A stretch of DNA of 64,000 nt. Source: Bdellovibrionales bacterium CG10_big_fil_rev_8_21_14_0_10_45_34 (GTDB lineage Bacteria; Bdellovibrionota; Bdellovibrionia; Bdellovibrionales; 1-14-0-10-45-34). The DNA is taken from NCBI GenBank assembly GCA_002778785.1, contig PEZS01000001.1, positions 87,552-151,551 on the forward strand, in the 5' to 3' direction. This document shows positions 22,268-47,110 of the stretch, piece after piece. Each line of letters opens with the position of its first letter. The stretch's first letter is position 1. The position numbers and the translations under genes were made by a program. The notes beneath the pieces were generated by a model that was given only the letters and a program-made list of their open reading frames with translations, was not told the DNA's origin and made no database searches.

Positions 22268-22941
22268 AATTTCAAAGATTTGACCCAATTGATAAGTTCG
22301 ACCTGAGCCGGTATGAGCTCCCTGACTTCGAAACCGTTCGATTGATATATAAGTAGATCCTCTTTTTCATCAACATCAAAATTCGAATCGACTAATCGAA
22401 CTTTACAATACATCGACAGGCCGGCCTTGAGTTGGTTAGCGGTTTGGTCAGTGCTGTAAGCAACACTTTTCCACACCTCCGAAGGCAGAGGGACTCCGCT
22501 TCCGAAGAAGTAGAATCCCCCGTCGCGAGTTTCACCCACAATCGCGCTATCGGAGGCATAAAATTCAGTCGTAGAAATATACCGAGAGAGGTCTTTAAGA
22601 CGAAGGTGAGGTGAGTCAGCGCCTATAAAACAAACGAAAGAATATTTCTGCCTCAGAGACTCATAGGCTGCCGCAAGTCTGTCACCCAGACCGCCGGACG
22701 ATTGAGGCATTGTCTTCATCCCCCGCCAAAACTCGGAAGTTAATCCCTCTGGTTCGGCAACGGCCCAAAGCACATCAACACCATCCATTTGGTGTTGAAG
22801 TTTCTTGGTCAAAGATTCAGTAGCGAGCACCGAAAGGCTGTAGAAGAGGTTTGCATTTTCAGGACCGATACCGGCAGCTAGCCTCGTTTTGACATTGGAT
22901 ATCCCTGGTGTCTTTACAAAAACGACTATGACACCCTTCAT
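22264..22941 (-). CDS. DUF2064 glycosyltransferase, arsenosugar type (TIGR04282-like)
   Basis: About 225 residues with a GT-A fold. VVFVKTPGISNVKTRLA is the nucleotide-sugar-binding start of the CofC/DUF2064 group; IGADSPHL provides the metal-binding Asp; GETRDGGFYFFG is the family's acceptor motif. Proteins of this type accompany ArsM and ArsS in arsenosugar clusters and are thought to add or transfer the glycerol or sugar aglycone. ATG at 22941 forms a 4-nt overlap with the neighbouring glycosyltransferase gene, so the two are coupled. Confidence 0.85.
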   Translation of the reverse strand: MKGVIVVFVKTPGISNVKTRLAAGIGPENANLFYSLSVLATESLTKKLQHQMDGVDVLWAVAEPEGLTSEFWRGMKTMPQSSGGLGDRLAAAYESLRQKYSFVCFIGADSPHLRLKDLSRYISTTEFYASDSAIVGETRDGGFYFFGSGVPLPSEVWKSVAYSTDQTANQLKAGLSMYCKVRLVDSNFDVDEKEDLLIYQSNGFEVRELIPAQVELINWVKSLKL

Positions 22942-23636
22942 GGATTTTCCTTCGTTCGAATGATCTTCCATATCTCTGGCAATGCTTGCCTGACGGTTAG
23001 AATCAAGTGACTAGATGTAGTCTTCGACCAACCTTCGCTTCGATACTTTCGCGCACTTGTGTAGATGAAGGAACCAACGTTTCGAATTTTAATTTTGTTT
23101 CTGTGGGCTTTCCAAACCAAAAGATGATCTTCACCGTATGGAGCTTCTTCATTAAAACCTCCCAATTCCTGAAAGACGCTTTTCTTCATAAAAAAAGCCT
23201 GATCGCCAAAGGGTATTTTTAGGACCTGCGAGCGAAACCATACTCCTACGGTATTAACTGCCATCTGACGAGGTCCATCGGCCAAAAATTTTAAACTGAA
23301 AAAGTGAATATCATCCAGATCAAGTGACTCAATGTTTTTTAGTTTGGCAAAGGCCCCCATTGGAATCCGTGAATCACAATGCAAAAACCAAAGGTATCCG
23401 TAGGCCGATACCTTTACGGCGGCATTCATTTGCCGAGCGCGTCCCATTGAATTTTCGACAAACCGGGTGCGAAAGACAACCTTCTTATCCGTAAATGCAG
23501 ATTCAATTTCAGCGATCTGTCTTTTTCCTGTGGAGAAAACGACTTCATCATTGGACGAAAGGAATGAAAGATCGTCTATTAGATTTCGCCAACTTTCATC
23601 ATTTTCACCAATAGGAATGATCACCGATATGCCCAA
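22938..23636 (-). CDS. Family 2 glycosyltransferase, arsenosugar type (TIGR04283-like)
   Basis: About 232 residues with a GT2 fold. ISVIIPIGEND starts the domain. RARQMNAAVKVS and WFLHCDSRIP (DxD-like) fit nucleotide-sugar binding, and PFGDQAFFMKK and GGFNEEAPYGEDH are typical of the TIGR04283 group. The start is TTG at 23636, behind GAGGGAG, 5 nt after the MTA phosphorylase stop. An upstream in-frame extension of 34 codons lies inside the previous gene and is rejected. A related protein is encoded at 46355-47110. Confidence 0.83.
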   Translation of the reverse strand: MGISVIIPIGENDESWRNLIDDLSFLSSNDEVVFSTGKRQIAEIESAFTDKKVVFRTRFVENSMGRARQMNAAVKVSAYGYLWFLHCDSRIPMGAFAKLKNIESLDLDDIHFFSLKFLADGPRQMAVNTVGVWFRSQVLKIPFGDQAFFMKKSVFQELGGFNEEAPYGEDHLLVWKAHRNKIKIRNVGSFIYTSARKYRSEGWSKTTSSHLILTVRQALPEIWKIIRTKENP

Positions 23637-23641
23637 GTCTC

Positions 23642-24487
23642 TTACTCCCTCAAAAAATCTAAAATGTGTTTTTGATCCGGACCCAGTTCGCTCACTTTGG
23701 TCATTACTGCAAATGCAAGAGACGATCGGCACTCGCAAGGAATGGGTTCTTGGTTCAACTGAGTCAAATGGCCAACCACCGATTGAACTTTGGTAATATT
23801 TTTTCTGTAGAGATCCATAACTTTCGCTGCCGTTGCATGTTCCGTTGGATCTTCAAGCCAACAGTCGTAGTCAGTGACAACAGCCACCGTGGCGTAACAG
23901 AGTTGGGCTTCTCGAGCCAAAAAAGCTTCAGGGACATTTGTCATCCCCACAATGTCCGCCCCATTTGATTTTAAAAAGAGACTCTCCGCACGCGTACCTA
24001 ATCTTGGACCTTCCACGCAGGCATAAGTCTTATTTTTGTGAAGTTCGAAATTTAAATTCTTTGCACTGGTTAAAATTCGATAACTGAGATTCTGGCACAC
24101 TGGATTTGCAGTAGAAATATGGACGACAAGGCCACTGCCAAAAAACGTTCCTACTCGTTTCCCTTTTGTCCAATCCAAATATTGATCCGGCAGAGCAAGG
24201 TCTCCCGGTCGAATATCTTGTTGGAGACTGCCAACCGCCGAAACACTTAGGATTTCGCGGACTCCAGCTGACTTCAGACCCCAAATATTCGCTCTAAAAT
24301 TTATCTCTGAGGGCGTGATGCTATGGTTGAGCCCGTGCCTAGCAAGAAAAGCGATCTTTTGACCGTTAATGAGTCCAACGGAAATTTTTGAAGATGGTTT
24401 TCCAAACGGAGTCTCGATATCAAGAGTATCGACTATCTCGAGACCCTCAATTTGGTAAAAACCTGATCCTCCAATGATACCTAACAT
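23642..24487 (-). CDS. mtnP: Purine nucleoside phosphorylase of the MTA phosphorylase type
   Basis: 281 residues. GIIGGSGFYQIEG, ARHGLNHSITPSEINFRAN, SAVGSLQQDIRPGDLALP, DQYLDWTKGKR and GMTNVPEAFLAREAQLCYA are the landmarks of S-methyl-5'-thioadenosine phosphorylase. In this setting the enzyme may instead cleave adenine from the 5'-deoxyadenosyl arsenical made by ArsS, leaving a ribosyl arsenical for glycosylation. That is an inference from context, and a normal methylthioadenosine salvage role is equally compatible. It starts 9 nt after arsM, with TAGGAG upstream. Confidence 0.88.
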   Translation of the reverse strand: MLGIIGGSGFYQIEGLEIVDTLDIETPFGKPSSKISVGLINGQKIAFLARHGLNHSITPSEINFRANIWGLKSAGVREILSVSAVGSLQQDIRPGDLALPDQYLDWTKGKRVGTFFGSGLVVHISTANPVCQNLSYRILTSAKNLNFELHKNKTYACVEGPRLGTRAESLFLKSNGADIVGMTNVPEAFLAREAQLCYATVAVVTDYDCWLEDPTEHATAAKVMDLYRKNITKVQSVVGHLTQLNQEPIPCECRSSLAFAVMTKVSELGPDQKHILDFLRE

Positions 24488-24496
24488 AGTTAGCTC

Positions 24497-25549
24497 CTAG
24501 CAGCAGGCGCCGACGGCGCTATCGCTCCCGGTAGAAGTTGTCGATGGCCCGCAATCAAATAGTCCGAAGTGGGTGCCCGTATCTCCAATAATTCGAAAGT
24601 ATTGAGCGTAACGAGTGTCTTTCAGCATTGACGCTGTATTACTGCATACCGCAATCGCTTTTCCTTTTTCAAAGGTATGGTGGTCATCAAGAACAAAGGC
24701 ATTAGGGCTGTTTTGTATACCGCCCAAATAGGTCGCGATTTGACCGAAGTCTTCGCAGCGATCTTCAAGTTGCAATTTGAAAGCGCGAACCGAAATCGAA
24801 TAGAAATCGATCATTCCAGCGAGCTTTTGAATTTCAGCATTGTTAAGGGAAATTCGCGTGCGTGAAGTCACCCTATAGTCGGGGCAGTTTAATTCTAAGA
24901 GCATTCTTCGGAAGTCCTCAGTGTACATGGCTCCCCCAAGGCACTCCCCAACGAGTGTTGCGTCTTCCGTCAGTTCTTTGGGAATCCGTCTTCCTGAGAA
25001 AACATCGGAAAAGTAAAGTTCTCCTCCTGGTTTTAAAACGCGAAAAATTTCAGAGAATACTCGCTTTTTGTTGGGCGATAGATTGATGACGCAATTAGAA
25101 ACCACCACGTCAATTGACTCTGATTTTATGCCGGCACCTTCAAGGTCCTCGATATAGCCTTTGATAAAAGTAACGTTGGGTTCGTTGTATCCGAATTGCT
25201 GTGTGTGATAATCCAGATGTTTTTTTGCTACAGCAATTTGTTCTTCTGTCATATCTACGCCAATCACTCGGCCTCGAGGGCCGACGAGCTTAGAAAGCAG
25301 AAAGCAGTCGCGTCCGGTGCCACTGCCAAGATCTAGAACTGTTTTTCCTTCAAGAGCGTGTGGAATTGGTGAGCCACACCCGTAAAATTTATCTTTTACT
25401 TCATCATGAATTTCTTTGAGAATCTCGCGCAAGTGGAGCGGCATACTGTCGGCCGTACAGCATGCGCTTGTTTTTAAGTCCTCACTCGATTTTAAGATTT
25501 TCCCATAATACTCTTTTACACTTTCAAGGCCCTGATTGTTCGTACTCAT
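24497..25549 (-). CDS. arsM: Arsenite S-adenosylmethionine methyltransferase ArsM
   Basis: 350 residues. The SAM-binding motif VLDLGSGTGRDCFLLSKLVG lies at 71-90. The four conserved arsenic-binding cysteines appear as Cys30 (SACC), Cys58 (YGCGSP), Cys153 (SNCVINL) and Cys203 (GECLGGA). The C-terminus ends in GACC, a common ArsM tail. The enzyme methylates As(III) up to dimethyl and trimethyl forms. It is flanked by ArsS-linked genes: 1 nt separates it from the membrane-protein stop upstream and 9 nt from mtnP downstream. Dimethylarsenite would be the substrate for ArsS. Confidence 0.95.
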   Translation of the reverse strand: MSTNNQGLESVKEYYGKILKSSEDLKTSACCTADSMPLHLREILKEIHDEVKDKFYGCGSPIPHALEGKTVLDLGSGTGRDCFLLSKLVGPRGRVIGVDMTEEQIAVAKKHLDYHTQQFGYNEPNVTFIKGYIEDLEGAGIKSESIDVVVSNCVINLSPNKKRVFSEIFRVLKPGGELYFSDVFSGRRIPKELTEDATLVGECLGGAMYTEDFRRMLLELNCPDYRVTSRTRISLNNAEIQKLAGMIDFYSISVRAFKLQLEDRCEDFGQIATYLGGIQNSPNAFVLDDHHTFEKGKAIAVCSNTASMLKDTRYAQYFRIIGDTGTHFGLFDCGPSTTSTGSDSAVGACC

Positions 25550-34015: not shown

Positions 34016-34358
34016 AATTGAGAATAAATCTGGCTGGCTTGTTGGCGGTGGAGTTCTGGCTTCAATCGTCGCCTCTATCTGTTGCATCGGTCCACTAGTG
34101 CTTACGGTATTGGGAATATCTGGAGCTGCGGCGCTTTCAAAATTTGAGACTCTTCGAATCCCAATGATTGTGTTTGTTTTGATTTCGTTTGGAATCGCTG
34201 GTTTTTCTCTTTATCAGAAAAGAAATAGTTGCGAGCAAGGTTCGATATGTGCTGATCCCAGCAAATTCAGAAGAATGGTCGCTTTTTATTGGATAGGATT
34301 GGTGATTGCGATTTTGGGAATTTCGTCCCCGCAATGGGTTGTTTTTCTTTTTTCATAG
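34002..34358 (+). CDS. merT: MerT-like mercuric ion inner-membrane transporter
   Basis: 118 residues from ATG 34002, placed 6 nt after GGAGG. Three hydrophobic helices are visible. The vicinal Cys27-Cys28 (ASICCIGPLVL) in the first helix and Cys77/Cys83 (CEQGSIC) in the loop match the two pairs of classical MerT, including the 6-residue spacing. It would pass Hg(II) from MerP into the cytoplasm. An earlier in-frame ATG at 33981 lies further inside merR and lacks a ribosome site. merP starts 9 nt downstream. Confidence 0.88.
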   Translation: MGLDKIENKSGWLVGGGVLASIVASICCIGPLVLTVLGISGAAALSKFETLRIPMIVFVLISFGIAGFSLYQKRNSCEQGSICADPSKFRRMVAFYWIGLVIAILGISSPQWVVFLFS

Positions 34359-35543: not shown

Positions 35544-36614
35544 CTATTTTTGCTTTCGATCCCAGTAACAGATGTTTTGTGCATCCTTTAACGAAGCGGT
35601 CTCTAGCAGCGTGAGACAGGACCTGAGAAGTCCGGTCTTCCATTCCAGCTCGGGAGAGATTGGAAGTTGCGAAATGTACACCAACCTTCGGATCACTTCC
35701 ACAGCAGCAAAACGAAAAATCAAAGAGCGCTCTATTTTGGCATGGACGCAAATGCAAGAATCAATATGCGCCAACAAAGATACTAACGTCGCTGTCGCTT
35801 GCCCTGCCAGCATTGCGTGGGCCAAAAGAACCCCGTAGTCCCATTCCGCACGGCCAAAGAAACAAAACTCAGAATCCAAGACAACTATCTTTGACTCATT
35901 CCCAGATCCCACCTTCACCCAACTGCGCGGGTAAAAGTCGCCATGGACGAGCGTTGGCGCATCCTGAAAATAGACGGAGCCTAAAGCTAAAGCTATTTCC
36001 GAGTACGGTTTTTTAGCCATCCCATCAAAGACAACTTTTGAAAATCCGGGCGTCATTTTATCAAGCATCGACCAATATGGTGTGTCGGTGAAAGGCAATT
36101 CAAAAATGTATCGGTGGTTAAGCTCTCGCATAGCCAGGTTAAATGGCACCTCTGAGATTTCTTGATCCAGATCGTGAAGTCGCGCTAGGTAACTCAGAAG
36201 TGTTCCAATTTCTTCCGGCGTAAATTCGCGATGAAGGTAGATGAGCTCGAAATCTTGACACTGACCAAGATCTTCCATCCACACGATCTTTCTGTCGTCA
36301 TCCACATGCAGAATCGTTGGTGATTGCCGTTCCAAAATTGCATTGCGACTCACATTTTTAAAATAGAAGGCTTCTGCTAAGATACGATTTGTGTCTGCAG
36401 GAATGTCTGGGAAAAAGGCACAAAAGGGAGGCGACTGCTTGGCGACAATAGCGGTGCCCCGGTTCCCCCGCACGCGCAAAGTGACATTCATAAATCCCGG
36501 TCCAGCTGGTTCAACACTCACAGCAGTACCCAAGTGGTCCAGAAGCCCGACCTTATCAATCTCAGCTGTCCATTTTTCAAGTGGCCAGGACCGTATCAAG
36601 TCTATCGGATTCAC
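35544..36614 (-). CDS. Small-molecule kinase of the APH/methylthioribose-kinase-like group
   Basis: 356 residues with a protein-kinase-like fold. NVTLRVRG and AIVAKQSPPF form the nucleotide-binding lobe. VHGDFYPRSW is the catalytic loop (Asp as base) and VVLDSEFCFFG (Asp) the metal-binding step; the FCFFGRAEWD sequence recalls 5-methylthioribose kinase and relatives. It may phosphorylate a sugar or nucleoside-derived alcohol. GTG at 36614 overlaps the ABC ATPase stop by 4 nt (GTGA), making this the last gene of the ynj-like operon. Confidence 0.82.
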   Translation of the reverse strand: MNPIDLIRSWPLEKWTAEIDKVGLLDHLGTAVSVEPAGPGFMNVTLRVRGNRGTAIVAKQSPPFCAFFPDIPADTNRILAEAFYFKNVSRNAILERQSPTILHVDDDRKIVWMEDLGQCQDFELIYLHREFTPEEIGTLLSYLARLHDLDQEISEVPFNLAMRELNHRYIFELPFTDTPYWSMLDKMTPGFSKVVFDGMAKKPYSEIALALGSVYFQDAPTLVHGDFYPRSWVKVGSGNESKIVVLDSEFCFFGRAEWDYGVLLAHAMLAGQATATLVSLLAHIDSCICVHAKIERSLIFRFAAVEVIRRLVYISQLPISPELEWKTGLLRSCLTLLETASLKDAQNICYWDRKQK

Positions 36615-37282
36615 CGCAGGATATCCTTCGAATCGGAAAGAAGACCCACCGTGATCCTTTTGCTCTCTGCTGGCAGATCAGTCATTTCGTGTGTGACAAG
36701 GAGACAAGGCAACTCTTGGTCCCTCACACATTGAAAAACAAAAGCTCGAAACTCTAATCGAAGCAAGGGATCGAGCTTTGCAAAGGGTTCATCCAGCAAC
36801 AACGCTCGCGGATTGCTGAGCAGTGTTCGAAGAAGACTCACGCGTGATCGTTGCCCACCAGACAGAGAGGTGGGCCGTCGATCGACATACCCTTCAAGGT
36901 CAGCCTTCTTCAGCATTTCGCGTACCCGATGCAGACGAGTTGCACGCGGTTCGTGTCCTTGCATTCCAAATAGCAGATTTTCGCCAACCGACATATTTGG
37001 AAATAAAAGATCGTCTTGAAACATGAGTCCGAGCTTTCGCTCTTGAGGTGACTGCTTATCCAGTCGAATGCGGGTCTCGTCATCCTTACCTATCCAGATT
37101 TCCCCAGAAGCGCTAAACTTTGGATCTAAAACTCCCGCGCAATAGCTGAGAAGGCTGCTTTTGCCTGAACCGCTGGGACCTAAAACGCCCAACACTTCAC
37201 CGTTAGCTATTGTAAGTCTTTCGATCTGAACCAAAATCCGCAGTGGACTTGCGATCGATATATTCTTTAGAATCATCGGCAT
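36611..37282 (-). CDS. ABC transporter ATP-binding protein (YnjD-like)
   Basis: 223 residues: Walker A GPSGSGKSS, Q-loop MFQDDLLFPNMSV, signature LSGGQRSRVSLLRTLLSNP, Walker B ALLLDEPF and switch His VTHEM. The sequence belongs to the spermidine/thiamine/Fe3+ importer class. ATG at 37282 is chosen because GGAGGG lies 6 nt upstream. It overlaps the permease by 10 nt and the kinase by 4 nt. It energises import by the YnjB/YnjC-like subunits. Confidence 0.93.
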   Translation of the reverse strand: MPMILKNISIASPLRILVQIERLTIANGEVLGVLGPSGSGKSSLLSYCAGVLDPKFSASGEIWIGKDDETRIRLDKQSPQERKLGLMFQDDLLFPNMSVGENLLFGMQGHEPRATRLHRVREMLKKADLEGYVDRRPTSLSGGQRSRVSLLRTLLSNPRALLLDEPFAKLDPLLRLEFRAFVFQCVRDQELPCLLVTHEMTDLPAESKRITVGLLSDSKDILR

Positions 37283-38919
37283 GTCGATCCCTCCGGCCTT
37301 TGAGAAAATAGCGAGCAAAATAGAAATACTGCTGCGGGGAGCATGGCATTGGCTAAACCATAAACCGCAACCCAACGCCGGTTTCCACTGCTGAGCGATG
37401 CGACAGTCTCGGTGGCCAAGGTCGTCCAATCTCCACCACCGAGCATGATTGTCGGTAAAAATTGCGAGACACTCACTGCAAAGCCCACAGCAAACGCCGC
37501 AGCGATGGAACCTTTCAGCAACGGTACGCGGATTTTCAATAAAAATACGGTTTTACTTTTACCTAGGGACGCAGCCACCAGAGCAAGCCTCGGATCCACT
37601 TGATGAAAAGCCTGCTGGAGTACCAGAAATACATAGGGAAAGACAAAAAGCATATGGCCCAGAAATACCGCAATGGAGGGATGATAGATTCCAACACGCG
37701 AAAGCATCGAGTCTAACCCAATGACAGCGATTAAAGCCGGGAAGACAAGCATAAGAAAAACTGCGGTCGTCGCGATCTTGGTGTGTGCTCGAGAATCAAA
37801 TTCAATCCAAAGAAGAACAGTAGCAATCGACGCAAGAGCAGAGCTGACGGCAAGTCCTAAAGTCTGAATCAAAGTGCCTCTCATGCTGGAAACTCCCTCA
37901 CGCGCAAACTCCAAGGTCCAAGCAGGAGGTATCGGCTGATCAATCGTCCAGCTGTCTCCAAAAACCCAAAGCACCAAGGCCACGACAGACAGGATCAACG
38001 TAAATAAAATAAATAAAAGCATGGGTGACAGCGGAAGTGGGCGCTTTCCAATTTTGCCTTTACTCAAGAGCCAGCTTTTGAACCGGCCTAAACTCCAAAG
38101 CGCCCCTTCCCATCCGAAAACTCCGAGAGCGACCAAAGCTAACAACATCAGTGCTCCGCCAGACACTAAAGCCTGCGTCGACTCTCCGGGGTCCTTGATC
38201 CAATCCCACAATACGAGCGCGAATACAGGGGGGTTCGTAGGGCCAAGGACCACCGCGACATCAACGACACAGATTGAATACCCTAGGACAGCCCAAATTG
38301 CGTATCGCAGTCCATGCAGCACCTGCGGCCATTCGACCCACCACCAACTCGTCCAATTTGATCGGCCCAAACTATTGACGATCTTTCTTGATGCTCCCAC
38401 TGAATCTACCAGCGGAAGTCCCACATAAATTAAAAACAGAGACTCCTTCATGCCAAGAAAAAGACTTAACGTCCATGCTCCGACATCATGATCCAATTGA
38501 AAGGCATACTCTCTGCCGGGAAACAGGGAGCCCAAAACACGCACGAGCCAACCGCTATCTCCCACAAGTAGTAATAGCCCTGTTGCGAGTGAAAGGTGAG
38601 GAATGGAAATCAACGTTCCCAAAGCCCCAGTCGTCCACCAAGAATGTTGAGATCGAGATTTCGCGAGCCGAAACCAGCCCAGTGCCATACCAGTCAATAG
38701 GATTGCGAGCGCCGTACTGACCCAACCAACTTTCAACGTCAGGACCGCAGCGCCCATCGTGTAATTTGAAAAGAGGTCAGCCAGAGCACCTGTTCCGGAG
38801 GACGACGGCGATCCTAGAAATGCTCCAAGCATGCTGAACGCAGCAGGAATAAAAAACAGAATCAGAACAAAAATCCTCGAGACCCAAATCAACCCGCGAC
38901 TCCGTATCGTCTTTGCCAT
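37273..38919 (-). CDS. Double-length ABC permease (YnjC-like)
   Basis: 548 residues with about 12 hydrophobic helices in two halves. Each half is a binding-protein-dependent permease unit, as in ThiP and YnjC. EAA-like loops are visible near SVGASRKIVNSLGRSNWTSW in the first half and VAASLGKSKTVFLLKIRVPL in the second. The fused form needs no separate second permease. ATG at 38919 lies 31 nt inside the upstream binding-protein gene. Confidence 0.88.
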   Translation of the reverse strand: MAKTIRSRGLIWVSRIFVLILFFIPAAFSMLGAFLGSPSSSGTGALADLFSNYTMGAAVLTLKVGWVSTALAILLTGMALGWFRLAKSRSQHSWWTTGALGTLISIPHLSLATGLLLLVGDSGWLVRVLGSLFPGREYAFQLDHDVGAWTLSLFLGMKESLFLIYVGLPLVDSVGASRKIVNSLGRSNWTSWWWVEWPQVLHGLRYAIWAVLGYSICVVDVAVVLGPTNPPVFALVLWDWIKDPGESTQALVSGGALMLLALVALGVFGWEGALWSLGRFKSWLLSKGKIGKRPLPLSPMLLFILFTLILSVVALVLWVFGDSWTIDQPIPPAWTLEFAREGVSSMRGTLIQTLGLAVSSALASIATVLLWIEFDSRAHTKIATTAVFLMLVFPALIAVIGLDSMLSRVGIYHPSIAVFLGHMLFVFPYVFLVLQQAFHQVDPRLALVAASLGKSKTVFLLKIRVPLLKGSIAAAFAVGFAVSVSQFLPTIMLGGGDWTTLATETVASLSSGNRRWVAVYGLANAMLPAAVFLFCSLFSQRPEGSTCR

Positions 38920-40025
38920 TCGCGTTCAATATACTCCATCCAGCAGGCATGAGGTTCGTTTTGCGCGGGGCCACGCAAAGACAAAGCCGGAAGTTTTATG
39001 CCCTGAGGTACTTTTGCAGAGTCCAACACTGTAGGGTCGCCCCAATTTGCCACGTCAGCCTTTCGAACCTGTGCTTCTGGCGAAGTCAGATGGTTGATCC
39101 ACTGAAGCGCAGCCTGCTGCTTTTGCGAGTTAAATGGTATCGCTAAAAAATGAACATTAGCGATACCACCTTTTTTAAAAGTCGTCGCATAGGCGCCCGC
39201 GGGAAGTTCTTTTTTCAGAATCAATCCATCCACTTCAAGAGGATTGAAGCTCATTGACATCAGAAGCTGCTGGTCCATCAGCATTTGATGTAAAACTTGA
39301 GTGGAAGCGGGGAAGGTCTGAGCCTTCCGCCAAAGAAAGGGGTGCAGCTCGTCCAGAAATTTCCACAAAGGGGCGGAAGCACTCGACGTGGTATCCGGAG
39401 TACACGCCTTTTGGAGGTTGCTGGATGTAGAAAGCTCCAAGAGGAGCTGCTTTAGAAATGTTGTGCCATGAAATTGCGGGGGCCTGACATAGGTGATTCG
39501 ACCAGGGTTGGCCTTTGCATATGCCAAAAGCTCTGTCGCCGTCTGCGGCGCCAGAGGCGTTCGCTTGCGATCCCAGATAAACACGAATTGGGCGCGTCCC
39601 CAGGGAACTTCAAATCCTTCGGTGACGGTAGAGAAATCGTTCAAAAACTGCGGGTCAGTCAAATTCATGTACTTTCGATTTTCAATCTTGGAGAGGAGCG
39701 GACCTGCCAGCAGGCCACTCTTTTTCATGGTCGCAAAATTTTCGCCGTTGAGCCAAACAACATCAATAGTACCCTTCGTCAGATTGCCTGAAGCTTTGTC
39801 CGACTGCACCTTTTTGATAACTGGCGGTAAGTCGTCAATCTTGATGTGCTGGACTTCAATACCCATCAATTTTTTAAAAGCTTCCGCTTCCGCTGCAATG
39901 TAGCGATTGATGCGCGGATCGCCACCCCATGCATGGAACTGAATCTTGACTGCGTCAGCTTCGAGTTGGTGGTTTATAAAAAACAAGGCCATAAGGACAA
40001 AAGTAAAGATACGAAGCACTCTCAT
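38889..40025 (-). CDS. ABC transporter substrate-binding protein (YnjB-like)
   Basis: 378 residues. Signal peptide (RVLRIFTFVLMALFFINHQ), then a family 1-type binding protein: IQFHAWGGDPRINRYIAAEA, IDVVWLNGENFATMK, GFEVPWGRAQFVFIWD and ITYVRPPQFHGTTFLKQ. WGGD and WLNGENFA are characteristic of YnjB. ATG at 40025 is preferred: AAGGG lies 6 nt upstream and the signal peptide begins here. The substrate of the YnjBCD system is not established, so the ligand should be read from context. Confidence 0.88.
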   Translation of the reverse strand: MRVLRIFTFVLMALFFINHQLEADAVKIQFHAWGGDPRINRYIAAEAEAFKKLMGIEVQHIKIDDLPPVIKKVQSDKASGNLTKGTIDVVWLNGENFATMKKSGLLAGPLLSKIENRKYMNLTDPQFLNDFSTVTEGFEVPWGRAQFVFIWDRKRTPLAPQTATELLAYAKANPGRITYVRPPQFHGTTFLKQLLLELSTSSNLQKACTPDTTSSASAPLWKFLDELHPFLWRKAQTFPASTQVLHQMLMDQQLLMSMSFNPLEVDGLILKKELPAGAYATTFKKGGIANVHFLAIPFNSQKQQAALQWINHLTSPEAQVRKADVANWGDPTVLDSAKVPQGIKLPALSLRGPAQNEPHACWMEYIEREWQRRYGVAG

Positions 40026-40066
40026 AATTAACCCTTCACTGCGGCGACCTTGCTCTCTGGAGCAAT

Positions 40067-41188
40067 TCATTTCAATCTCGAAACCAGGACGTCAATAAAA
40101 GTTCTGTCCACACGCTCACAATATCTATCGGTTCCCGTACTCTGCGTGGAATTAAACTGTGCCTCCAAGAAGAGTTTGGTTCTGAACGGAACCCTCGGAA
40201 AAGTATCGTCTGACCTCTTCACAAGTTTTGTCCTGATATTGTCACTACAGGAAAAAAATTGCGGATGACTGATGTATCCAACAAGAAGCGTGTCGAAAGG
40301 GATAAAACCGTCGAGTCCGGTAAAGAGTTTCCAAAGACGAATCCATGTTTTACTTTTTTGGAAAAGCCAAGGGCCCGCAAAGTGACCTGTTCGTAGGTTC
40401 GCCAAGATCGTGTCATTTATCAAACTTTCTCGCATCGCCTCGGTCGGAATCATTGTTATTGGAATTTTCTGCTCTAAAATAAATCGGACCGACTCAACAT
40501 CGTTATCAATATTTGTATCGGGTAAAATAACATTGTGAGGTCCAAGTCGCACGGGACTATTTGGTTTTCTCCCAGCCATTACCACTAGCTCTTCGATCTG
40601 TGGCCGAAGGCTCGGATTAAGTCGAATGGCAGTTGCGATGTTTGTGAGCGGACCCAATGCCAAAATCCGTAACCTCTCGCGAGACAATGCGGAACTCAAA
40701 GCATCCGATGCTTCCGTTGCCGTTCCAAATTGTTTCGGCGATCCCGCACCCTTCCATACCCTAAAAGTCATTGGAGAAAATCGACGAATGATGTCCATTG
40801 CGATCTGGTATTGCTTGCTGATATTTGCAATATTGCCATGAACAAGACTCACTCCAACGATCGATATTTCTGGCGACCTCATTGCTTGAATCAGAGCGTA
40901 TCCATCGTCGACATCTTTTCCCGGTTCTCCGATGGAAAGATCAGAGTCGATCCAAATCCGCGTTTCTGAGTACGCAATACTGACAAAAAGCTGCGGGAGT
41001 AGCACAAAACAGAGTGTCCAAAGTGCAATAGATTTACGACTCAAAATTCCCCCTACATAATTTAGTCCATTTGCTTGTCCAATTATATTAATCTTGGCGA
41101 GACAAAACGACCAAGAAATTTCTTTCCTCGATTCCGAAAACGCCCACGAAATAAAAACGATCAGAATGAAACCGACCAGTCCAATCAT
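40067..41188 (-). CDS. Nucleoside hydrolase family protein, exported or membrane-anchored
   Basis: 373 residues from ATG 41188, which overlaps the upstream phosphatidyltransferase stop by 4 nt. A second candidate start is TTG 41044 behind GTAGGGGGAATT. It would place a clean signal peptide (SIALWTLCFVLLPQLFVSIA) at the N-terminus and give about 325 residues. The catalytic Asp cluster is GKDVDDGYAL; LALGPLTNIATA and LPDTNIDNDVESVRF are the other IUNH motifs. Family members hydrolyse ribonucleosides to base and ribose. Periplasmic location suggests it works on imported or exported nucleosides or analogues. Confidence 0.82.
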   Translation of the reverse strand: MIGLVGFILIVFISWAFSESRKEISWSFCLAKINIIGQANGLNYVGGILSRKSIALWTLCFVLLPQLFVSIAYSETRIWIDSDLSIGEPGKDVDDGYALIQAMRSPEISIVGVSLVHGNIANISKQYQIAMDIIRRFSPMTFRVWKGAGSPKQFGTATEASDALSSALSRERLRILALGPLTNIATAIRLNPSLRPQIEELVVMAGRKPNSPVRLGPHNVILPDTNIDNDVESVRFILEQKIPITMIPTEAMRESLINDTILANLRTGHFAGPWLFQKSKTWIRLWKLFTGLDGFIPFDTLLVGYISHPQFFSCSDNIRTKLVKRSDDTFPRVPFRTKLFLEAQFNSTQSTGTDRYCERVDRTFIDVLVSRLK

Positions 41189-41787
41189 TGTTTTAACTCC
41201 TTAAAGGCCAAAGCGACTCGAGCTATGACCGTAAAGATAAGAATCGCTATCCATACCTTCACCGAAGTTCCGATGTACTGCGGTGCCAAGAGAAAAATTG
41301 AATAGGCGATTCCTGTTTCTCCACCCTCAGCGAGCCCAGCCCCAAGTTTTAGACCACGATTGTCGTTTTCGGTGAGTCCAAGTTCCTTTTCCAACGAGCC
41401 AAGTGCAAGAGCACCTGTAATACAAAGAACATACAATCCCATGACCAGGATCCACTCTCCGTGCAAATTAGGAAAGGCGATCGAAAAGCCAAAAATCATT
41501 GCCGAGTAGGAAGCCATATCACATACGATGTCGAGAAATGCACCCAGAGGAGTTGCCTGCTGGGTCGCACGAGCATAGATACCGTCTGTACCATCTAGTA
41601 AGCGACTTAACCACCAGCCGATAAGGGCCGACGTGAACTCGCCTCTAGAAATTAGCCAGGCCGAAACAAGAGCGATGCTCAATGATCCGACCGAAATCAT
41701 ATTTGGCGTAAGCCCAAGAAAGGAGTAAAATCGTATTAGCTTTGTCGTATAAGCTGGCAGACCGGCGCGAAACCAGTTGTCTATCAT
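41185..41787 (-). CDS. CDP-alcohol phosphatidyltransferase (YnjF-like)
   Basis: 200 residues with about six membrane helices. The signature DGTDGIYARATQQATPLGAF followed by LDIVCD fits DG-x2-AR-x8-G-x3-D-x3-D of the CDP-alcohol phosphotransferase family, with all metal-binding Asp present. It joins a CDP-activated group (such as CDP-diacylglycerol) to an alcohol acceptor. The alcohol is unknown. It overlaps both neighbours by 4 nt (ATGA). E. coli YnjF, in the ynjABCDEF region, is the closest contextual parallel. Confidence 0.9.
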   Translation of the reverse strand: MIDNWFRAGLPAYTTKLIRFYSFLGLTPNMISVGSLSIALVSAWLISRGEFTSALIGWWLSRLLDGTDGIYARATQQATPLGAFLDIVCDMASYSAMIFGFSIAFPNLHGEWILVMGLYVLCITGALALGSLEKELGLTENDNRGLKLGAGLAEGGETGIAYSIFLLAPQYIGTSVKVWIAILIFTVIARVALAFKELKQ

Positions 41788-42914
41788 TTGATGTCCTTTT
41801 CTAAATTGAACGATTTCATGTAGCTGTTGTCTATATAGTTCTTGAGGAGAAGTGCCATTTTTCCGGCGATAAAGTGTTTCCCAAAGATAGCGTGTGCGGA
41901 GCTTGGTCCACTCAGTAAAATATTGAGTTGAGCTTTCGGTGGTACATAGGGTTTAAGATCGGATATCGCGCCCAATCCGTGTCTCAAATTGAACGCCATA
42001 AGGCGCCCCTGCTGTACAGCAGTGACTCCCGAACGAGGCAAGAACTTGCTCGGCTCGAAGGTCGTGCAATCGCCTGCAGCGAAAACGTTAGAATGAGCTC
42101 TCAGGAAACTGTCCACCACTACAAACCCAGAAGAGTCCCGTTGGATGTTAGAGATGTCGATGGATGGTGGTGATTTCATGGGCAGAATGGGAAAGAGAAA
42201 GTCATAACGAAATGCAGATTTTTCGCCTTGAAAAATGAGGTGACGATCCTTTGTTTCAACCACATCGTGATCGAAATGAACTTCGACTCCTGCCTGTTGT
42301 AATGAGCGCAATAGCGAAAGAGATACTTTTGATTCGTAGTTTTTGGCGAGGGCCATGTCGCGAGTAAAGAGATGCACGCGACTTCGATTCGCGCCATTCT
42401 TCTTCAAACGTAGGTTGAGGGCCGTGGCTACTTCAATTGAAGCAGCTCCACCACCAACCACTGCGAATAAGAGCTCTCGACACGAAGAACATTCCCTTTG
42501 TACCTCTCGCCACTTTTCAACAAATGAAGTGATAGGTTTTACGTAAACGGATCTCACTTCTGATTCTGGATCCGTCGACAGTTTTGTCGGGACTCCCCCT
42601 ACATTGAGAAACAGATAGTCGAACTCAAATGTAGTCCCGTCGCTAGCCAAAAGAATTTTCTTATCAGGGTCAATTTTTAGAACCATTGCTTGGACAAATG
42701 TAATCTTATTTAGTTTGCAGAGTCTCTCTAAGTCTATCGCTAAATCTTTGCTCTGAAGCTCGCCCAAAATAAATCGTGGAAGTAAGCCTGAATAAAAAGT
42801 GTTCTTTTCCGGAGAGATGAGAGTATAAGTGGCGTCGCGTCCATGTTGTGTGGACAGAGATTTAATGACCTCAAGATTAGCGTGTCCTGCCCCGACAAAA
42901 ATTATCTTTTTCAT
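41784..42914 (-). CDS. FAD-dependent oxidoreductase similar to the SelD N-terminal / NDH-2 domain
   Basis: 376 residues. The FAD motif is KIIFVGAGHANLEVI, and SPEKNTFYSGLLPRFILG, IDLERLCKLNKITFV and VFAAGDCTTF follow. GHA at the nucleotide site and FYSGLLP match the flavoprotein domain fused to selenophosphate synthetase in many bacteria, here alone. No SelD catalytic part is present. ATG 42914 leaves a 13-nt gap from the rhodanese gene; a longer in-frame start overlaps that gene and lacks support. It may oxidise or reduce a sulfur, selenium or quinone species together with the upstream rhodanese. Confidence 0.83.
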   Translation of the reverse strand: MKKIIFVGAGHANLEVIKSLSTQHGRDATYTLISPEKNTFYSGLLPRFILGELQSKDLAIDLERLCKLNKITFVQAMVLKIDPDKKILLASDGTTFEFDYLFLNVGGVPTKLSTDPESEVRSVYVKPITSFVEKWREVQRECSSCRELLFAVVGGGAASIEVATALNLRLKKNGANRSRVHLFTRDMALAKNYESKVSLSLLRSLQQAGVEVHFDHDVVETKDRHLIFQGEKSAFRYDFLFPILPMKSPPSIDISNIQRDSSGFVVVDSFLRAHSNVFAAGDCTTFEPSKFLPRSGVTAVQQGRLMAFNLRHGLGAISDLKPYVPPKAQLNILLSGPSSAHAIFGKHFIAGKMALLLKNYIDNSYMKSFNLEKDIK

Positions 42915-42927
42915 AAAGTGCCCCAGT

Positions 42928-43479
42928 CTACCATATTGCTTTCCAATCGTGAGGAAGGAGATTCCACTCTGCCCCATAAATATGGGCAACTTTTACTGGC
43001 TTTCCTTGAGACCAAAGCTGCTTTCCGGAATGAGCCCAAAGCAAAATTCCGCCCCTTAAACTAAATGCATTAAATCCCTTTCGACGGAGATCGATAGCTG
43101 CTAACCCACTACGATAGCCGATAGTGCAGTAAACAATTATTTCATTGTTTTTATATTTTTCGGATTGTTGCTCGAATTCTGCCACAGAGATCGAGTTTTC
43201 TATTCTGGAAGTATCCATTTCTTTCTCAGTTCGGACATCCAAAATTGTGACTTTTGTAGAAATCAAGTTGACCTGATCCGCCTCCACGCTTGGAATTTCT
43301 CCCAACGCCTTCTGATAATCGGACAACATATTATTAATAAGATTTCTTTTTTCGACGTCGGATTGAGGCGTCTGACTAATGCCCATGAAATGGCCCAATG
43401 AATGACCAAATGTTCTCCACACCACAGTCGCGAAGATCAATAAAACCAAGGAAATCCATATAGCTCTCCTCTTTGTCAT
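42928..43479 (-). CDS. Membrane-anchored single-domain rhodanese
   Basis: 183 residues. An N-terminal anchor (AIWISLVLLIFATVVWRTF) is followed by a rhodanese domain with VTILDVRTEKEMD and the active-site loop VYCTIGYRSG (persulfide-forming Cys). The C-terminal extension (AHIYGAEWNLLPHDWKAIW) is unusual for rhodaneses. ATG at 43479 overlaps the cyclase stop by 4 nt. A periplasm-facing sulfurtransferase parallels YnjE of the E. coli ynj cluster, though the architecture is different. Confidence 0.85.
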   Translation of the reverse strand: MTKRRAIWISLVLLIFATVVWRTFGHSLGHFMGISQTPQSDVEKRNLINNMLSDYQKALGEIPSVEADQVNLISTKVTILDVRTEKEMDTSRIENSISVAEFEQQSEKYKNNEIIVYCTIGYRSGLAAIDLRRKGFNAFSLRGGILLWAHSGKQLWSQGKPVKVAHIYGAEWNLLPHDWKAIW

Positions 43480-44798
43480 GCTGAATCCTTCCGAGGCGCC
43501 TTGTGATAGCCGATTCCTACTAAATCGATTGAATGCGGAATTCCCGAGATATTTTCATTTGGTAAGGAAATGGCGGCTTCAGTAGGCGCAAATCCTTGTG
43601 TAATCGCGATTTCCATAAGCTTGCTCGTGACAAGAGCCCTGTATCCCGATGATTTGGTGTGCTTCTCCACTTTGGCGCTTAAATTGACAGCCTCGCCAAT
43701 AACAGTAATTTCCATGCGGTCTTCGTGGCCAATCACGCCAAAAATCACTTCGCCCAGTGCCACAGCGATTCCAAAATCGAAGGATCTACCTTCTTTGGAC
43801 ATCTCGGCCCGCCAAATATCAAGACGTCTATAGATACCTTCAAGGGCAAGCATTGCATCTTTTGCGAATGATTGGCTGGTCGCTACCGCTCCAAAATGGG
43901 CTAGGACTCCGTCTCCCATATACTTATCGACGCTGCCGTTATTTTTGAATATTTCGGCAGCGACGATGCGCTGATATTGTCCCAGGTAACCGACAACTTC
44001 TTCTGCAGAAATTTCATAGGAGAGCTTTGAAAAGCCCCGGAGATCAATCATCATCGTTGCTGCCGTACGTTTAGATCCCTGGCCCGGAGAGATTTCTCGA
44101 TCATGGCCTGACATTGACTGAAACGCCGCCTTACCCACAAGTCGCTCCATAGTCAAAAATCGAGACGATTGTTCAGCAAAGTTTGTAAGCAATTTCTTCT
44201 TCCTGTAGACGGCTAAAGCGCAAACGAAAGTGACTACTGCTAGGACAAATATTTTTTCTAACTCCGCCCCAACTAGAACTCGATCTGGAAGCAGGTACTC
44301 GGAAAACTTGCGCGTAATTATGATGTCCTTTTGTGAAACGGAATAGACGAGAACAAGCAACCAACAGAAGCTGGAGAGCAGGCTAACAAAGACTATTTTA
44401 ATAAAGTTGTACGACAGACAACGCACGCAAATGAGGAAGAAAAAATAGAGGAATGTCGGAGCATGCAAACTAAGAGGCACTGGGCGTCCATACTGAATGT
44501 GGAAGAGAAAAATGAGCGTAGTGAGCACAAAAACGTCGAGTGCGAGAAATATGTATGACAGGCTCGGGGTAGATTTTCGGTTCGCAGTGACAAAGTAACG
44601 TAACGCAAGCCAAGGTATGTAGAACGAAAGCAGAATTTTTACCGGCTCGAAACAAACTTCCGATGACCTAGAAAATCCTTTTGGGGTGAGGAGATATAAA
44701 CACAAAGCTAAAATTGCGAGTGCCAATTGGGCGACCGCTGCAAGTTTCTCAGCCTTCAGCTCTTCTACTATGATAAACCGTTCTATTTTTGTCTTCAC
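43476..44798 (-). CDS. Membrane class III adenylate/guanylate cyclase
   Basis: 440 residues. The N-terminal half has about 6-7 hydrophobic helices (residues 15-200) and no other sensor domain. The C-terminal cyclase domain shows MIDLRGFS and DKYMGDGVLAHFG, which supply the two metal-binding Asp. The usual VNLAARLE motif reads VNLSAKVE, so the transition-state Arg is replaced by Lys or shifted; activity may be altered. GTG at 44798 overlaps the glycosyltransferase stop by 4 nt, embedding a second-messenger enzyme in the ynj-like operon. Confidence 0.85.
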   Translation of the reverse strand: MKTKIERFIIVEELKAEKLAAVAQLALAILALCLYLLTPKGFSRSSEVCFEPVKILLSFYIPWLALRYFVTANRKSTPSLSYIFLALDVFVLTTLIFLFHIQYGRPVPLSLHAPTFLYFFFLICVRCLSYNFIKIVFVSLLSSFCWLLVLVYSVSQKDIIITRKFSEYLLPDRVLVGAELEKIFVLAVVTFVCALAVYRKKKLLTNFAEQSSRFLTMERLVGKAAFQSMSGHDREISPGQGSKRTAATMMIDLRGFSKLSYEISAEEVVGYLGQYQRIVAAEIFKNNGSVDKYMGDGVLAHFGAVATSQSFAKDAMLALEGIYRRLDIWRAEMSKEGRSFDFGIAVALGEVIFGVIGHEDRMEITVIGEAVNLSAKVEKHTKSSGYRALVTSKLMEIAITQGFAPTEAAISLPNENISGIPHSIDLVGIGYHKAPRKDSA

Positions 44799-46183
44799 TG
44801 AGCGTCCTCTAAAGATATTGCATGCGGAAATCGCTTCTGTTCGATTCTCTTAGAATACAGCCACCAAACCCAAAATCCGAAAAATACTGCGTACTCAATT
44901 GTTCGAAACCATGGTGCCAATTCTGGCGTCCAGTGCCATGAGTAGGCCGCAACGACAAGGTACGAGAAAACGAGCCACGGGGTATGCCCTGTGAATATCG
45001 ATAGTGGAAGAACCCAAAGCACGTACCAAGCATTCACCACAGGAGAAAGTAGTAGAAGAGTTCCGATGAGTCCTAGCGATGATTTTGGAATTTCTTTTGG
45101 ATCCTTGCCGCCTTTGAATTGCCATACGCTGTAGAAGAGGAAAGCGACGCCAAGCGCGACCTTTGTTACAAAACGGTTATCCAATGAACTACTCAGATGA
45201 ACACCGGTCAAACTCAATGATGATATGAGGTAGTCTACGACCACGGTAGCAACCTGAAAAATGCCCGCATTGAATTTCCAATATTGCGCAAATGTATGAG
45301 TCCCAGAAAATATATCTGGGCTAGTCAGAAGAAAAGGAGCGTAGAGACCAAGCAAAATTGAGAAATAAAGTGCTAGATGAGATTTCCATTTCTCATCTGA
45401 GCGAGCAATCAACGGTACCAACACAATCGGAAACAGCTTTACAGAAGTCGCGAGTGATAGTGCTGCCCAACCTAACTTCATCCGCCTGACCCAAAAAAAA
45501 TACAAGGTTGTTGTCAATAACAACACCACGAGAGCATCGAGGTGAATCGAGTTCGCAATTTCTTTGATCACCAGAGGATTAAGCAAATAGAGAAAACTCA
45601 GACTGGGGCTTTTTCCTGCGGAGATTAGCCATTTGTAAAGTACAAACCAGGTCGCAAGGTCGCAGCCTAGTAAGAATACTTTCAATGCAATTACTGAGTC
45701 TGAAAACAGTAAATGAAGACCGGCAAATGTTAGAACTGCGCCTGGGGGGTATATCGTCTTGATATCACCCCATTGAATATTCTGTCGGTACTGCACCGAG
45801 AGCCCATCAAGTGCGGGGTCCTCGGGCGCAAAGGTGTAGGGGTTAAAACCGCTTGCCAGTACGCGACCATCCCACAGATATCTCCAGAAGTCGTTTTCTA
45901 GAATTGGAGGCGAAAAGGAAACAACAACTCGGGAGGCGACCCCAATAAAGATAAGTATCCAGGGAAATTTGTTTCTAGGACTCGGAAGCAGCCTCGCAAT
46001 CCAGAAAAAAACACAGAATTGGACTGAAAACAGAATCGCTAGCCCAACAAACTCGTGAGTCCAATTTCCGACAAAGAAATAGCCAAGCGAAGATACAAGT
46101 AGGATTATTGGTGCGATGCTTCCAAGCGCCCTATGTTCAAAAATAATTGTTACTCCCTGTAAGAATTTAGGCCTAGCGCCCAC
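44795..46183 (-). CDS. Polytopic GT-C-type glycosyltransferase (DUF2029/GT87-like)
   Basis: 462 residues with about 11 hydrophobic segments. Landmarks are ENDFWRYLWDGRVLASGFNP then YTFAPEDP, the periplasmic Asp-containing loop of polyprenol-sugar mannosyltransferase-like enzymes, followed by TIYPPGAVLTFA and SVKLFPIVLVPLIA. Enzymes of this class use a lipid-linked sugar on the outer face of the inner membrane. The GTG start at 46183 is the first in frame but has weak support. It is the first gene of the ten-gene operon, divergent from another glycosyltransferase across ~170 bp. Confidence 0.8.
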   Translation of the reverse strand: MGARPKFLQGVTIIFEHRALGSIAPIILLVSSLGYFFVGNWTHEFVGLAILFSVQFCVFFWIARLLPSPRNKFPWILIFIGVASRVVVSFSPPILENDFWRYLWDGRVLASGFNPYTFAPEDPALDGLSVQYRQNIQWGDIKTIYPPGAVLTFAGLHLLFSDSVIALKVFLLGCDLATWFVLYKWLISAGKSPSLSFLYLLNPLVIKEIANSIHLDALVVLLLTTTLYFFWVRRMKLGWAALSLATSVKLFPIVLVPLIARSDEKWKSHLALYFSILLGLYAPFLLTSPDIFSGTHTFAQYWKFNAGIFQVATVVVDYLISSLSLTGVHLSSSLDNRFVTKVALGVAFLFYSVWQFKGGKDPKEIPKSSLGLIGTLLLLSPVVNAWYVLWVLPLSIFTGHTPWLVFSYLVVAAYSWHWTPELAPWFRTIEYAVFFGFWVWWLYSKRIEQKRFPHAISLEDAQ

Positions 46184-46354
46184 TTATTGTCGAAACACCG
46201 AATTACCGTACGTTTGTAAGTGTCTCCTAAGGGGGAAATCTTACAGAGGCGAGCAAAAATATTAGCATTTGCGGAGCCTTGATCGTTCAGTCCAAGAAAC
46301 CTTGAGTCCACAGGGCCGGGCATAGGTCGCCCGGTGATCTCGAGAAGGGAAAAA

Positions 46355-47110
46355 GTGAAACCTACAGAGCGCCAATCGAGAATCTCCCATACTTTCTCAA
46401 TTGTCGTACCCATTTTGAATGAGCGCGAAATCATTCAATCCACACTCGATTATCTTTGGCTGATCAGTGCTGAGCTAAGTGCGGCAACCAAAGACAATTG
46501 GGAGTTTGTTATTGTCGATGCCGGAAGTGCCGACGGAACTGGGGAAATACTCAGGAGCGTTCAAGCACCACCGAATTGGATACTCGTCCAGGGCAATATC
46601 GAGAAACCTTCTGTAGGAAAAACAGTTTCTCTCGGAATTTCAAAGGCATCGGGCTCCATCCTACTCATTTTGCCCTGTGACTGTCGATTGGGAATTGAGG
46701 CGCTTCTTGAAGTTGACGACCTTGCCCGCAGAAAAAATGTGATTTGCGGAGGTTTTCCGAAAACCTATGAACCGAGCTCTTCGCTTCTGAAAACCTATCA
46801 AGCGGTTCAGAACGTTGTTCGACTTAGAATGTTTCGACATGTCGTATGGACGAACGGTATCTTTTTTTCGAGAAGTCTCATCAACAAGAAGGTATTTCCA
46901 GTCTTAGGGTTTCTAGAGGACATTTTGCTTTCCGATCAACTGCGCAATCATCAGAACTGGAGCCTCTTGAAAAGCAGAATTTGGGTGTCTTCTCGCCGCT
47001 ACTTTAAGCGCTCACAATTGAAAAGAATGTCATTGAATATCTTGATTCTAATTACATATAGGCTCAAATTTATGTCAGAAATTCAGCTTAGAGCAATTTA
47101 CTACAAATAA
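46355..47110 (+). CDS. Family 2 glycosyltransferase similar to the arsenosugar TIGR04283 group
   Basis: 251 residues with a GT2 domain: FSIVVPILNEREIIQ, VIVDAGSADGTGEIL and LLILPCDCRLG at the DxD position. The C-terminal GFLEDILLSDQLRNH and SSRRYFKR resemble the TIGR04283 tail. GTG at 46355 follows GAAGGGA by 4-5 nt; a GTG at 46334 is an alternative. It diverges from the ynj-like operon, and MarR follows 15 nt downstream. Its acceptor is unknown. Similarity to the gene at 22938-23636 suggests a shared type of chemistry. Confidence 0.8.
   Translation: MKPTERQSRISHTFSIVVPILNEREIIQSTLDYLWLISAELSAATKDNWEFVIVDAGSADGTGEILRSVQAPPNWILVQGNIEKPSVGKTVSLGISKASGSILLILPCDCRLGIEALLEVDDLARRKNVICGGFPKTYEPSSSLLKTYQAVQNVVRLRMFRHVVWTNGIFFSRSLINKKVFPVLGFLEDILLSDQLRNHQNWSLLKSRIWVSSRRYFKRSQLKRMSLNILILITYRLKFMSEIQLRAIYYK

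Follow-up and report, generated by a model that had tools for sequence, protein, structure and literature searches.

An operon of ten genes with a ynjBCD importer beside an arsenosugar-type cluster in a Bdellovibrionales genome

In the window (the whole 64,000-nucleotide stretch of DNA analysed), the ORF listing gives ten minus-strand ORFs from 46183 to 35544 arranged as one tight operon. A sequence-only reading had already described a ten-gene operon with multiple 4-nt overlaps, and both the ten ORFs and six such overlaps were confirmed (GT-C/cyclase, cyclase/rhodanese, flavoprotein/CDP-alcohol transferase, CDP-alcohol transferase/next ORF, hydrolase/YnjB and YnjD/kinase). Intergenic gaps are of about 13 nt or less, except in the stretch carrying a NupC remnant. 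Promoter and terminator scans of the operon gave nothing in excess of shuffled sequence, and the Rfam scan of the window returned two tRNAs and nothing else. The families named in that reading (YnjB, ABC permease and ATPase, PF01066, PF01156, PF00581, SelD-N-like, cyclase and MTR-kinase-like) are borne out by profile matches. All features below lie on the minus strand unless indicated.

The operon opens with a gene for a GT-C or GT87-like membrane glycosyltransferase (44795..46183). The Pfam search of the protein gave no match and the profile matches are weak and MptB-like, the GT87 annotation being that of plasmid relatives. It is followed by a membrane-anchored class III adenylate/guanylate cyclase (43476..44798; PF00211, 23.9 bits, cut-off 21.9), whose motif NLSAKVE carries a Lys in place of the usual Arg, and by a rhodanese with an N-terminal hydrophobic segment and the active site CTIGYRS (42928..43479; PF00581; NF045521, 75 bits, cut-off 145). 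This rhodanese has a single domain of 183 aa and is not YnjE, which has about 435 aa (E. coli ynjE spans 1308 nt).

The next gene encodes a SelD-N-like, TIGR03169-like FAD/NAD(P) oxidoreductase (41784..42914, start ATG 42914), scoring 234 bits against TIGR03169, under the curated cut-off of 310; its homologue in locus L114 reaches 305 bits. Homologues of this flavoprotein are found in the ArsM/ArsS islands L114, L174 and L185 and in Burkholderia glumae (L091). A selenium route, suggested by the flavoprotein and the rhodanese, was rejected on two grounds: the window ORFs that were read included no recognisable selenophosphate gene, and the flavoprotein has ArsS and ArsM genes as its island partners. 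The proposed sulfur or selenium chemistry thus receives no particular support, the neighbouring cluster pointing to arsenic.

The CDP-alcohol phosphatidyltransferase (41185..41787; PF01066) displays an intact DxxDGxxAR...GxxxDxxxD motif, with D65, D68, G69, R73, G82, D86 and D90 invariant. It groups with five sequences from the phylum in a clade separate from 27 YnjF proteins of ynjB loci (support 100/100), and is thus not the YnjF that travels with ynjBCD.

Downstream lies what remains of a NupC-type nucleoside transporter (41060..41187), an N-terminal piece joined in frame to the hydrolase that follows. About 23-28 codons of this remnant are recognisable, at 17.8 bits against PF01773 (below the cut-off); one of 5000 shuffles matched as well, and the position of the fragment is that of nupC in relatives. 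The hydrolase ORF appears to start about 48 codons too early, TTG 41044 being the likely true start. The protein is a nucleoside hydrolase of the IUNH fold with a signal peptide (40067..41044; PF01156, 95.8 bits, cut-off 34.2), and its homologues conserve the N-terminal Asp cluster D-x-D...DVDDG together with a signal-like N-terminal segment. A plasmid search with it retrieved generic relatives only, at about 26%.

Between the hydrolase and the kinase stands ynjBCD, encoding a YnjB-like solute-binding protein (38889..40070, start perhaps 40025 as read from the ORFs; NF008633, 405 bits, cut-off 203), a YnjC-like permease made of two fused halves (37273..38919) and a YnjD-like ABC ATPase (36611..37282, start read from the ORFs near 37282), the latter two identified by profile matches. 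YnjB is the sole copy among 368 sampled genomes of the phylum, the other 367 having no ynjBCD, and the GC content of the three genes is 0.49-0.505 vs 0.415-0.477 for the remaining operon genes. The three genes look acquired from outside. The database records examined give no substrate for YnjB, which belongs to a binding-protein family untypical of free sugars, a point against the arsenosugar reading preferred below. A role of ynjBCD as a general arsenic importer was discarded, ArsS being present in just 3 of 50 genomes with ynjBCD elsewhere.

The sequence-only reading regarded the operon as ynjBCDEF-like, i.e. as an extended ynj pathway orthologous to that of E. coli, with an unspecified substrate. 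Indeed, YnjB, YnjC and YnjD are real orthologues, and ynjBCD elsewhere often occurs with a CDP-alcohol transferase and a TVP38-FAD oxidoreductase, both kinds of gene being present in the window. However, the clade of the CDP-alcohol transferase and the size of the rhodanese contradict the orthology of both with YnjF and YnjE. Moreover, of 80 ynjB loci taken from other genomes (1.34 Mb), not one has a gene for the hydrolase, the kinase, the GT-C protein, the cyclase or the rhodanese, and the set is therefore not a conserved ynj pathway. Orthology of the whole operon is accordingly very improbable, and the label is valid for ynjBCD only. By that reading's own test, a conserved ynjBCD core with the other genes varying at random between relatives would count against it; the core does occur without them, but they do not vary purely at random, as they recur without ynjBCD in ArsM/ArsS islands of the phylum.

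The last gene (35544..36614) encodes a methylthioribose (MTR)-kinase-like kinase. Its match to TIGR01767 is weak (61 bits, cut-off 275), and the profile of its family matches the MTR kinase 2olc at 3.8e-25. The HGD, DxE and twin-Arg RR motifs, whose roles in MTR kinase are described (PMC2194712), are invariant in nine homologues aligned to 2olc and 2pyw; the kinase displays GPGFMN vs the MTR-kinase G-loop GxGNxN. A plasmid search with it gave no match. Choline or ethanolamine kinases were dismissed, profile searches giving no such match, as was thiamine salvage by a ThiK-like kinase under a TPP riboswitch, since Rfam detected the two tRNAs only and the profile of the kinase indicates an MTR kinase. 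MtnA (TIGR00512) has no match in this genome, whereas 4 of 14 related genomes score over the cut-off. The kinase product therefore cannot enter methionine salvage, and this route and the DHAP shunt were both rejected.

About 3 kb separates the operon from an arsenosugar-type cluster at 20.5-32.9 kb of the window. It includes the arsenosugar radical SAM enzyme ArsS, in sole copy in the genome (26690..27793; TIGR04167, 450 bits, cut-off 300), and an enzyme resembling MTA phosphorylase (MTAP-like; 23642..24487; TIGR01694, 300 bits, cut-off 274.85). An ArsM-like arsenite methyltransferase (24497..25549; NF008823, 201 bits, cut-off 263) and TIGR04283-like and TIGR04282-like glycosyltransferases (22264..23738; 159 and 110 bits, cut-offs 182 and 134) are best matches in their class, yet under the curated cut-offs. 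Another TIGR04283-like GT2 glycosyltransferase gene is divergent from the operon (46334..47110, plus strand; 103.6 bits, cut-off 182). The sequence-only reading made no mention of this cluster. Such a context is decisive for how the operon is read.

Other genomes support a link between operon genes and ArsM/ArsS islands. In G174, a single 20-kb stretch holds the hydrolase, kinase, CDP-alcohol transferase, nupC, SelD-N-like flavoprotein, TIGR04283, ArsM and radical SAM genes, the latter at just 69 bits against the ArsS profile. A 37-kb contig of G172 with ArsM and ArsS carries the cyclase (30% over 371 aa, 188 bits), a rhodanese (34%) back to back with the CDP-alcohol transferase gene, nupC, and a GT-C gene overlapping a TIGR04282-like gene; more generally, GT-C relatives adjoin TIGR04282 or DUF2064 and GT2 genes. 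In G173, the CDP-alcohol transferase gene and nupC accompany ArsS. Of the six genomes with a close homologue of the CDP-alcohol transferase, four have it within 20 kb of ArsS or ArsM, and an intact nupC adjoins it in G172, G173 and G174. Most of the 38 other ArsS loci lack operon genes, which recur in the same three islands and singly elsewhere.

These data also bear on the operon being a chance mosaic within a metal(loid)-resistance island, in which co-transcribed genes serve several unrelated processes and ynjBCD keeps its E. coli role, whatever that is. The whole ten-gene set was found in no other genome examined, just one other island has the cyclase and the rhodanese, and ynjBCD, with its distinct GC content, is foreign to the phylum sample. 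By contrast, genes from one small pool come back in separate islands, start/stop overlaps are kept despite the rebuilt order, and the co-occurrence of hydrolase and kinase is almost perfect. Such a mosaic is unlikely.

The hydrolase is present in 8 of 290 genomes and the kinase in 10, all eight hydrolase genomes having the kinase; the two genes are adjacent in G079, G174 and G352. ArsS is found in 2 of these 8 genomes vs 39 of the 282 others (p = 0.32), and, because six of its eight genomes are without ArsS, the pair shows no specificity for arsenic. General nucleoside scavenging is a serious rival, to which we assign a substantial minority probability: the pair would recover ribose or 5-modified ribose from outside nucleosides, its placement in islands being an accident of gene traffic. 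The pair also occurs in housekeeping surroundings (e.g., L113), signal-like N-termini are conserved across the hydrolase family, and NupC transporters stand beside the CDP-alcohol transferase gene in three genomes. However, the pair is found twice, in the window and in G174, inside an ArsM island with the CDP-alcohol transferase and flavoprotein genes, and its neighbours in G352 are TIGR04283-like and radical SAM genes. In addition, plain ribose would be an unexpected substrate for a carbon-1 kinase that carries MTR-kinase motifs.

The explanation preferred here, taken as a whole, is that the ten genes form a single transcription unit of at least two sources belonging to an organoarsenic (arsenosugar-type) island; it is put at somewhat below an even chance. 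The linkage is observed, the substrates and the lipid step being our inference. A 5'-modified nucleoside would reach the periplasm, most likely one of the dimethylarsinoyl-deoxyadenosine type that ArsS or a related enzyme produces, and there the exported hydrolase would remove the base. YnjBCD, which would have replaced a NupC nucleoside transporter, may import the freed modified ribose, which the MTR-kinase-like enzyme would phosphorylate on carbon 1. As MtnA is missing, this sugar-1-phosphate has no methionine-salvage route and might enter a TIGR04282/TIGR04283 glycosyl-transfer route together with what the MTAP-like enzyme makes. The flavoprotein and rhodanese could provide redox or thiol chemistry, and the cyclase, the one divergent protein on which the second-messenger control of the sequence-only reading depends, could be regulatory. 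This sequence-based proposal, that an arsenosugar-type pathway, which may include lipid attachment, receives modified ribose-1-phosphate from a nucleosidase in the periplasm, an importer and a carbon-1 kinase, is itself held tentatively. The import, base removal, phosphorylation and possible lipid attachment of the sequence-only reading are retained in it, on the basis of the hydrolase-ynjBCD-kinase order and the kinase motifs, but not their framing as an extended ynj operon.

Finally, the CDP-alcohol transferase and the GT-C protein could load a lipid carrier with the product, in the manner of cyanobacterial and algal arsenosugar phospholipids, the class to which a lipid-bound arsenoriboside would belong (PMC11009773). 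Carbon-arsenic bond formation is accounted for by ArsM and ArsS, and the arsenosugar literature surveyed names no gene between the adenosylated arsenical and lipid-bound arsenosugars. We consider rather unlikely a further reading, in which the operon and the ArsS cluster jointly encode an arsenolipid pathway: arsenoribose would be recycled or acquired by way of the periplasmic nucleosidase, the ABC importer and the carbon-1 kinase, and the lipid made by a CDP-alcohol phosphatidyltransferase dedicated to this step; if true, candidate genes for arsenosugar phospholipid synthesis would be named. The ten overlapping genes hint at a way in which a bacterium could gather a modified sugar, activate it and couple it to a lipid of its membrane. 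The nucleosidase-importer-kinase order points to a class of ligands that can be tested on YnjB, and the CDP-alcohol transferase clade is a testable candidate for lipid attachment of arsenosugars.

Compared with E. coli ydjXYZ-ynjABCDEF, the window shares YnjB, YnjC and YnjD orthologues and a nearby TVP38-domain protein (a YdjX/YdjZ relative), whereas the clade of the CDP-alcohol transferase and the size and architecture of the rhodanese differ, and five other genes are absent from the E. coli operon. Clusters for 5-deoxyribose salvage with transporters are known (PMC6079011). As in the 5-deoxyribose/DHAP shunt and methionine salvage, where a nucleosidase precedes an MTR-kinase-like carbon-1 kinase or is replaced with it by a phosphorylase, both activities are predicted here, but the nucleosidase here is an exported protein with the IUNH fold, the genome has no MtnA and no aldolase is recognised among the operon genes. 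Regarding arsenosugar biosynthesis, none of the ten genes corresponds to a recognised step, and the hydrolase, importer, kinase and CDP-alcohol transferase are missing from most ArsS loci, whereas ArsS, over its cut-off, and ArsM-, MTAP-, TIGR04283- and TIGR04282-like genes adjoin the operon, whose genes recur in such islands. Arsenosugar phospholipids, known as compounds from cyanobacteria and algae, are the kind of product to be expected if a CDP-alcohol transferase acted within an ArsS island.

The operon consists of ten minus-strand ORFs between 46183 and 35544. Neighbouring ORFs overlap or are separated by no more than about 13 nt, save at a transporter remnant before the hydrolase. In order of transcription, they encode a GT-C protein, a class III cyclase, a rhodanese, a SelD-N-like flavoprotein, a CDP-alcohol transferase, a nucleoside hydrolase, YnjB, YnjC, YnjD and a methylthioribose (MTR)-kinase-like kinase. 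Family searches bore out these assignments, several scores lying below curated cut-offs, and a promoter/terminator scan of the operon gave signals no better than chance. The cyclase (43476-44798) has Lys in place of the usual class III catalytic Arg (NLSAKVE), as does another at locus L138 (61-1242; NLVAKLE), and the activity of both is uncertain. In a radical SAM/DUF2064 cluster of Miltoncostaea, a protein annotated as GT2 (L093, 7962-9917) has a GT87/GT-C match, suggesting that GT2 and GT-C are fused in it.

The sequence-only reading had described these genes as an extended ynj-like operon. The tight packing and the families hold, as does the orthology of ynjBCD (NF008633, 405 bits), but the ynj-likeness is limited to ynjBCD because the transferase clade, the rhodanese size and the contents of ynjB loci differ. 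The CDP-alcohol transferase groups with five same-phylum sequences, apart from 27 YnjF (support 100/100), and the rhodanese, a single domain of 183 aa, is ruled out as YnjE. At 80 ynjB loci from other genomes, the recurrent neighbours are CDP-alcohol transferases, a TVP38-FAD oxidoreductase and, in some cases, a SelD-N-like flavoprotein; none of these loci carries the hydrolase, kinase, GT-C, cyclase or rhodanese. Elsewhere in the phylum, no ynjBCD was found in the sample of 368 genomes, the search of relatives returning two matches only, both weak and fragmentary, and the GC content of ynjBCD is 0.49-0.505 versus 0.415-0.477 in the remaining operon genes. A conjugative Salmonella IncC plasmid (L005, NZ_MH760469) carries ynjB with TVP38-FAD and SelD-N-like genes near IS26 and resistance genes. 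A DUF692-like and DUF2063-like pair, present in the window at 18250-19903, often adjoins ynjBCD on plasmids or in Burkholderiales, frequently with DUF2282 and DoxX, and the TVP38/TMEM64-FAD oxidoreductase fusion (29666-31927) recurs by ynjBCD in Proteobacteria and by ArsS in the window's phylum.

The main new fact is the linkage of the operon to an arsenosugar-type island 3 kb away (20.5-32.9 kb). Its single-copy ArsS scores 450 bits against TIGR04167 (cut-off 300) and a nearby MTAP-like enzyme also exceeds its cut-off, while the ArsM-, TIGR04283-, TIGR04282- and ArsC-like genes each fall below theirs; another TIGR04283-like gene is divergent from the GT-C gene opening the operon. Of 290 genomes from the phylum, 41 have ArsS, and its usual neighbours at 38 other loci are ArsM, TIGR04282/04283, TVP38-FAD, PiT, MTAP and DUF547. 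Also in this region are a protein without a Pfam family (21608-22288) recurring in 9 of 45 ArsS/ArsM-region loci, a membrane protein without Pfam or NCBIfam match between the ArsM-like gene and ArsS (25551-26744), with a homologue found only in the island of genome G174, and, between cluster and operon (33581-34358), the gene of a MerR-like regulator and, after it, that of the mercuric transport protein MerT (PF02411).

The hydrolase occurs in 8 and the kinase in 10 of 290 genomes, all eight hydrolase genomes having the kinase (hypergeometric 4e-14, relatedness ignored), and the two genes adjoin in G079, G174 and G352. A single 20-kb stretch of G174 holds NupC, the CDP-alcohol transferase, a TIGR04283-like gene, the SelD-N-like flavoprotein, a CMD protein, the hydrolase, the kinase, PiT, radical SAM, ArsM, TVP38-FAD and DUF547. 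One 37-kb contig of G172 unites genes for cyclase, CMD, GT-C, TIGR04282, rhodanese, CDP-alcohol transferase, NupC, a TIGR04283-like protein, ArsM and ArsS; the GT-C gene overlaps that for TIGR04282, and the rhodanese and transferase genes stand back to back. G173 has NupC and the transferase gene together with TIGR04283-like, ArsS and TVP38-FAD genes. In 4 of 6 genomes, window included, a close transferase homologue is no more than 20 kb from ArsS or ArsM, and TIGR04283 is found in 8/8 hydrolase-kinase genomes versus 98/282 others (p = 3e-4, relatedness ignored). Against an arsenic link, just 2 of these 8 genomes have ArsS (p = 0.32), and the operon genes are absent from most of the 38 other ArsS loci. 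The linkage of cyclase, GT-C and rhodanese to arsenic islands comes mainly from one island. We consider it fairly probable that the linkage of the operon to the arsenosugar-type island is functional. G016 has a second, divergent gene of nucleoside-hydrolase-like type (L188, 5031-5885), whose product lacks a signal peptide, next to ArsS, TIGR04282/04283-like genes and radical SAM.

An intact NupC-type gene adjoins the transferase gene in G172, G173 and G174. In the window, an ORF overlapping the 3' end of the transferase gene by 4 nt starts LVGFILIVFISWAFSESRKEISW, resembling the NupC N-terminus (LLGIIMIVIIGLVLSEKRAEISW in G173); 1 of 5000 shuffled sequences equals its score against G174 NupC, and the PF01773 match is below cut-off. 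This ORF continues into that of the hydrolase, which itself probably starts at TTG 41044, and ynjBCD lies between hydrolase and kinase. From gene order, the simplest reading is loss of a nucleoside transporter and gain of ynjBCD.

The nucleosidase and MTR-kinase-like chemistry of the sequence-only reading, unlike its framing as a ynj pathway, is consistent with the evidence, and its interpretation is supported in part. The HGD, DxE and RR motifs are invariant in the kinase family, whose profile matches MTR kinases at 4e-25 and 6e-23; the plant enzyme uses HGD to act on O1 and RR to bind the hydroxyls of the sugar (PMC2194712). A phosphorylase yields the same product as a nucleosidase plus an MTR-type kinase (PMC6079011), and an MTAP-like enzyme is encoded near ArsS in the window; in G352, MTAP lies 60 nt from ArsS. 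A search of the window's genome found no MtnA, which G352 likewise lacks; the product would therefore be unusable for methionine salvage or an MtnA-type DHAP shunt, and both fates are ruled out. That an exported nucleosidase, an importer and a C1-kinase feed an arsenosugar-type pathway, possibly with lipid attachment, is a tentative proposal that we rate somewhat below even. The adenosylated arsenical is the product of ArsS (as cited in PMC12159101), and arsenoriboside phospholipids, a known product class (PMC11009773), are lipids of a kind that a CDP-alcohol transferase might form.
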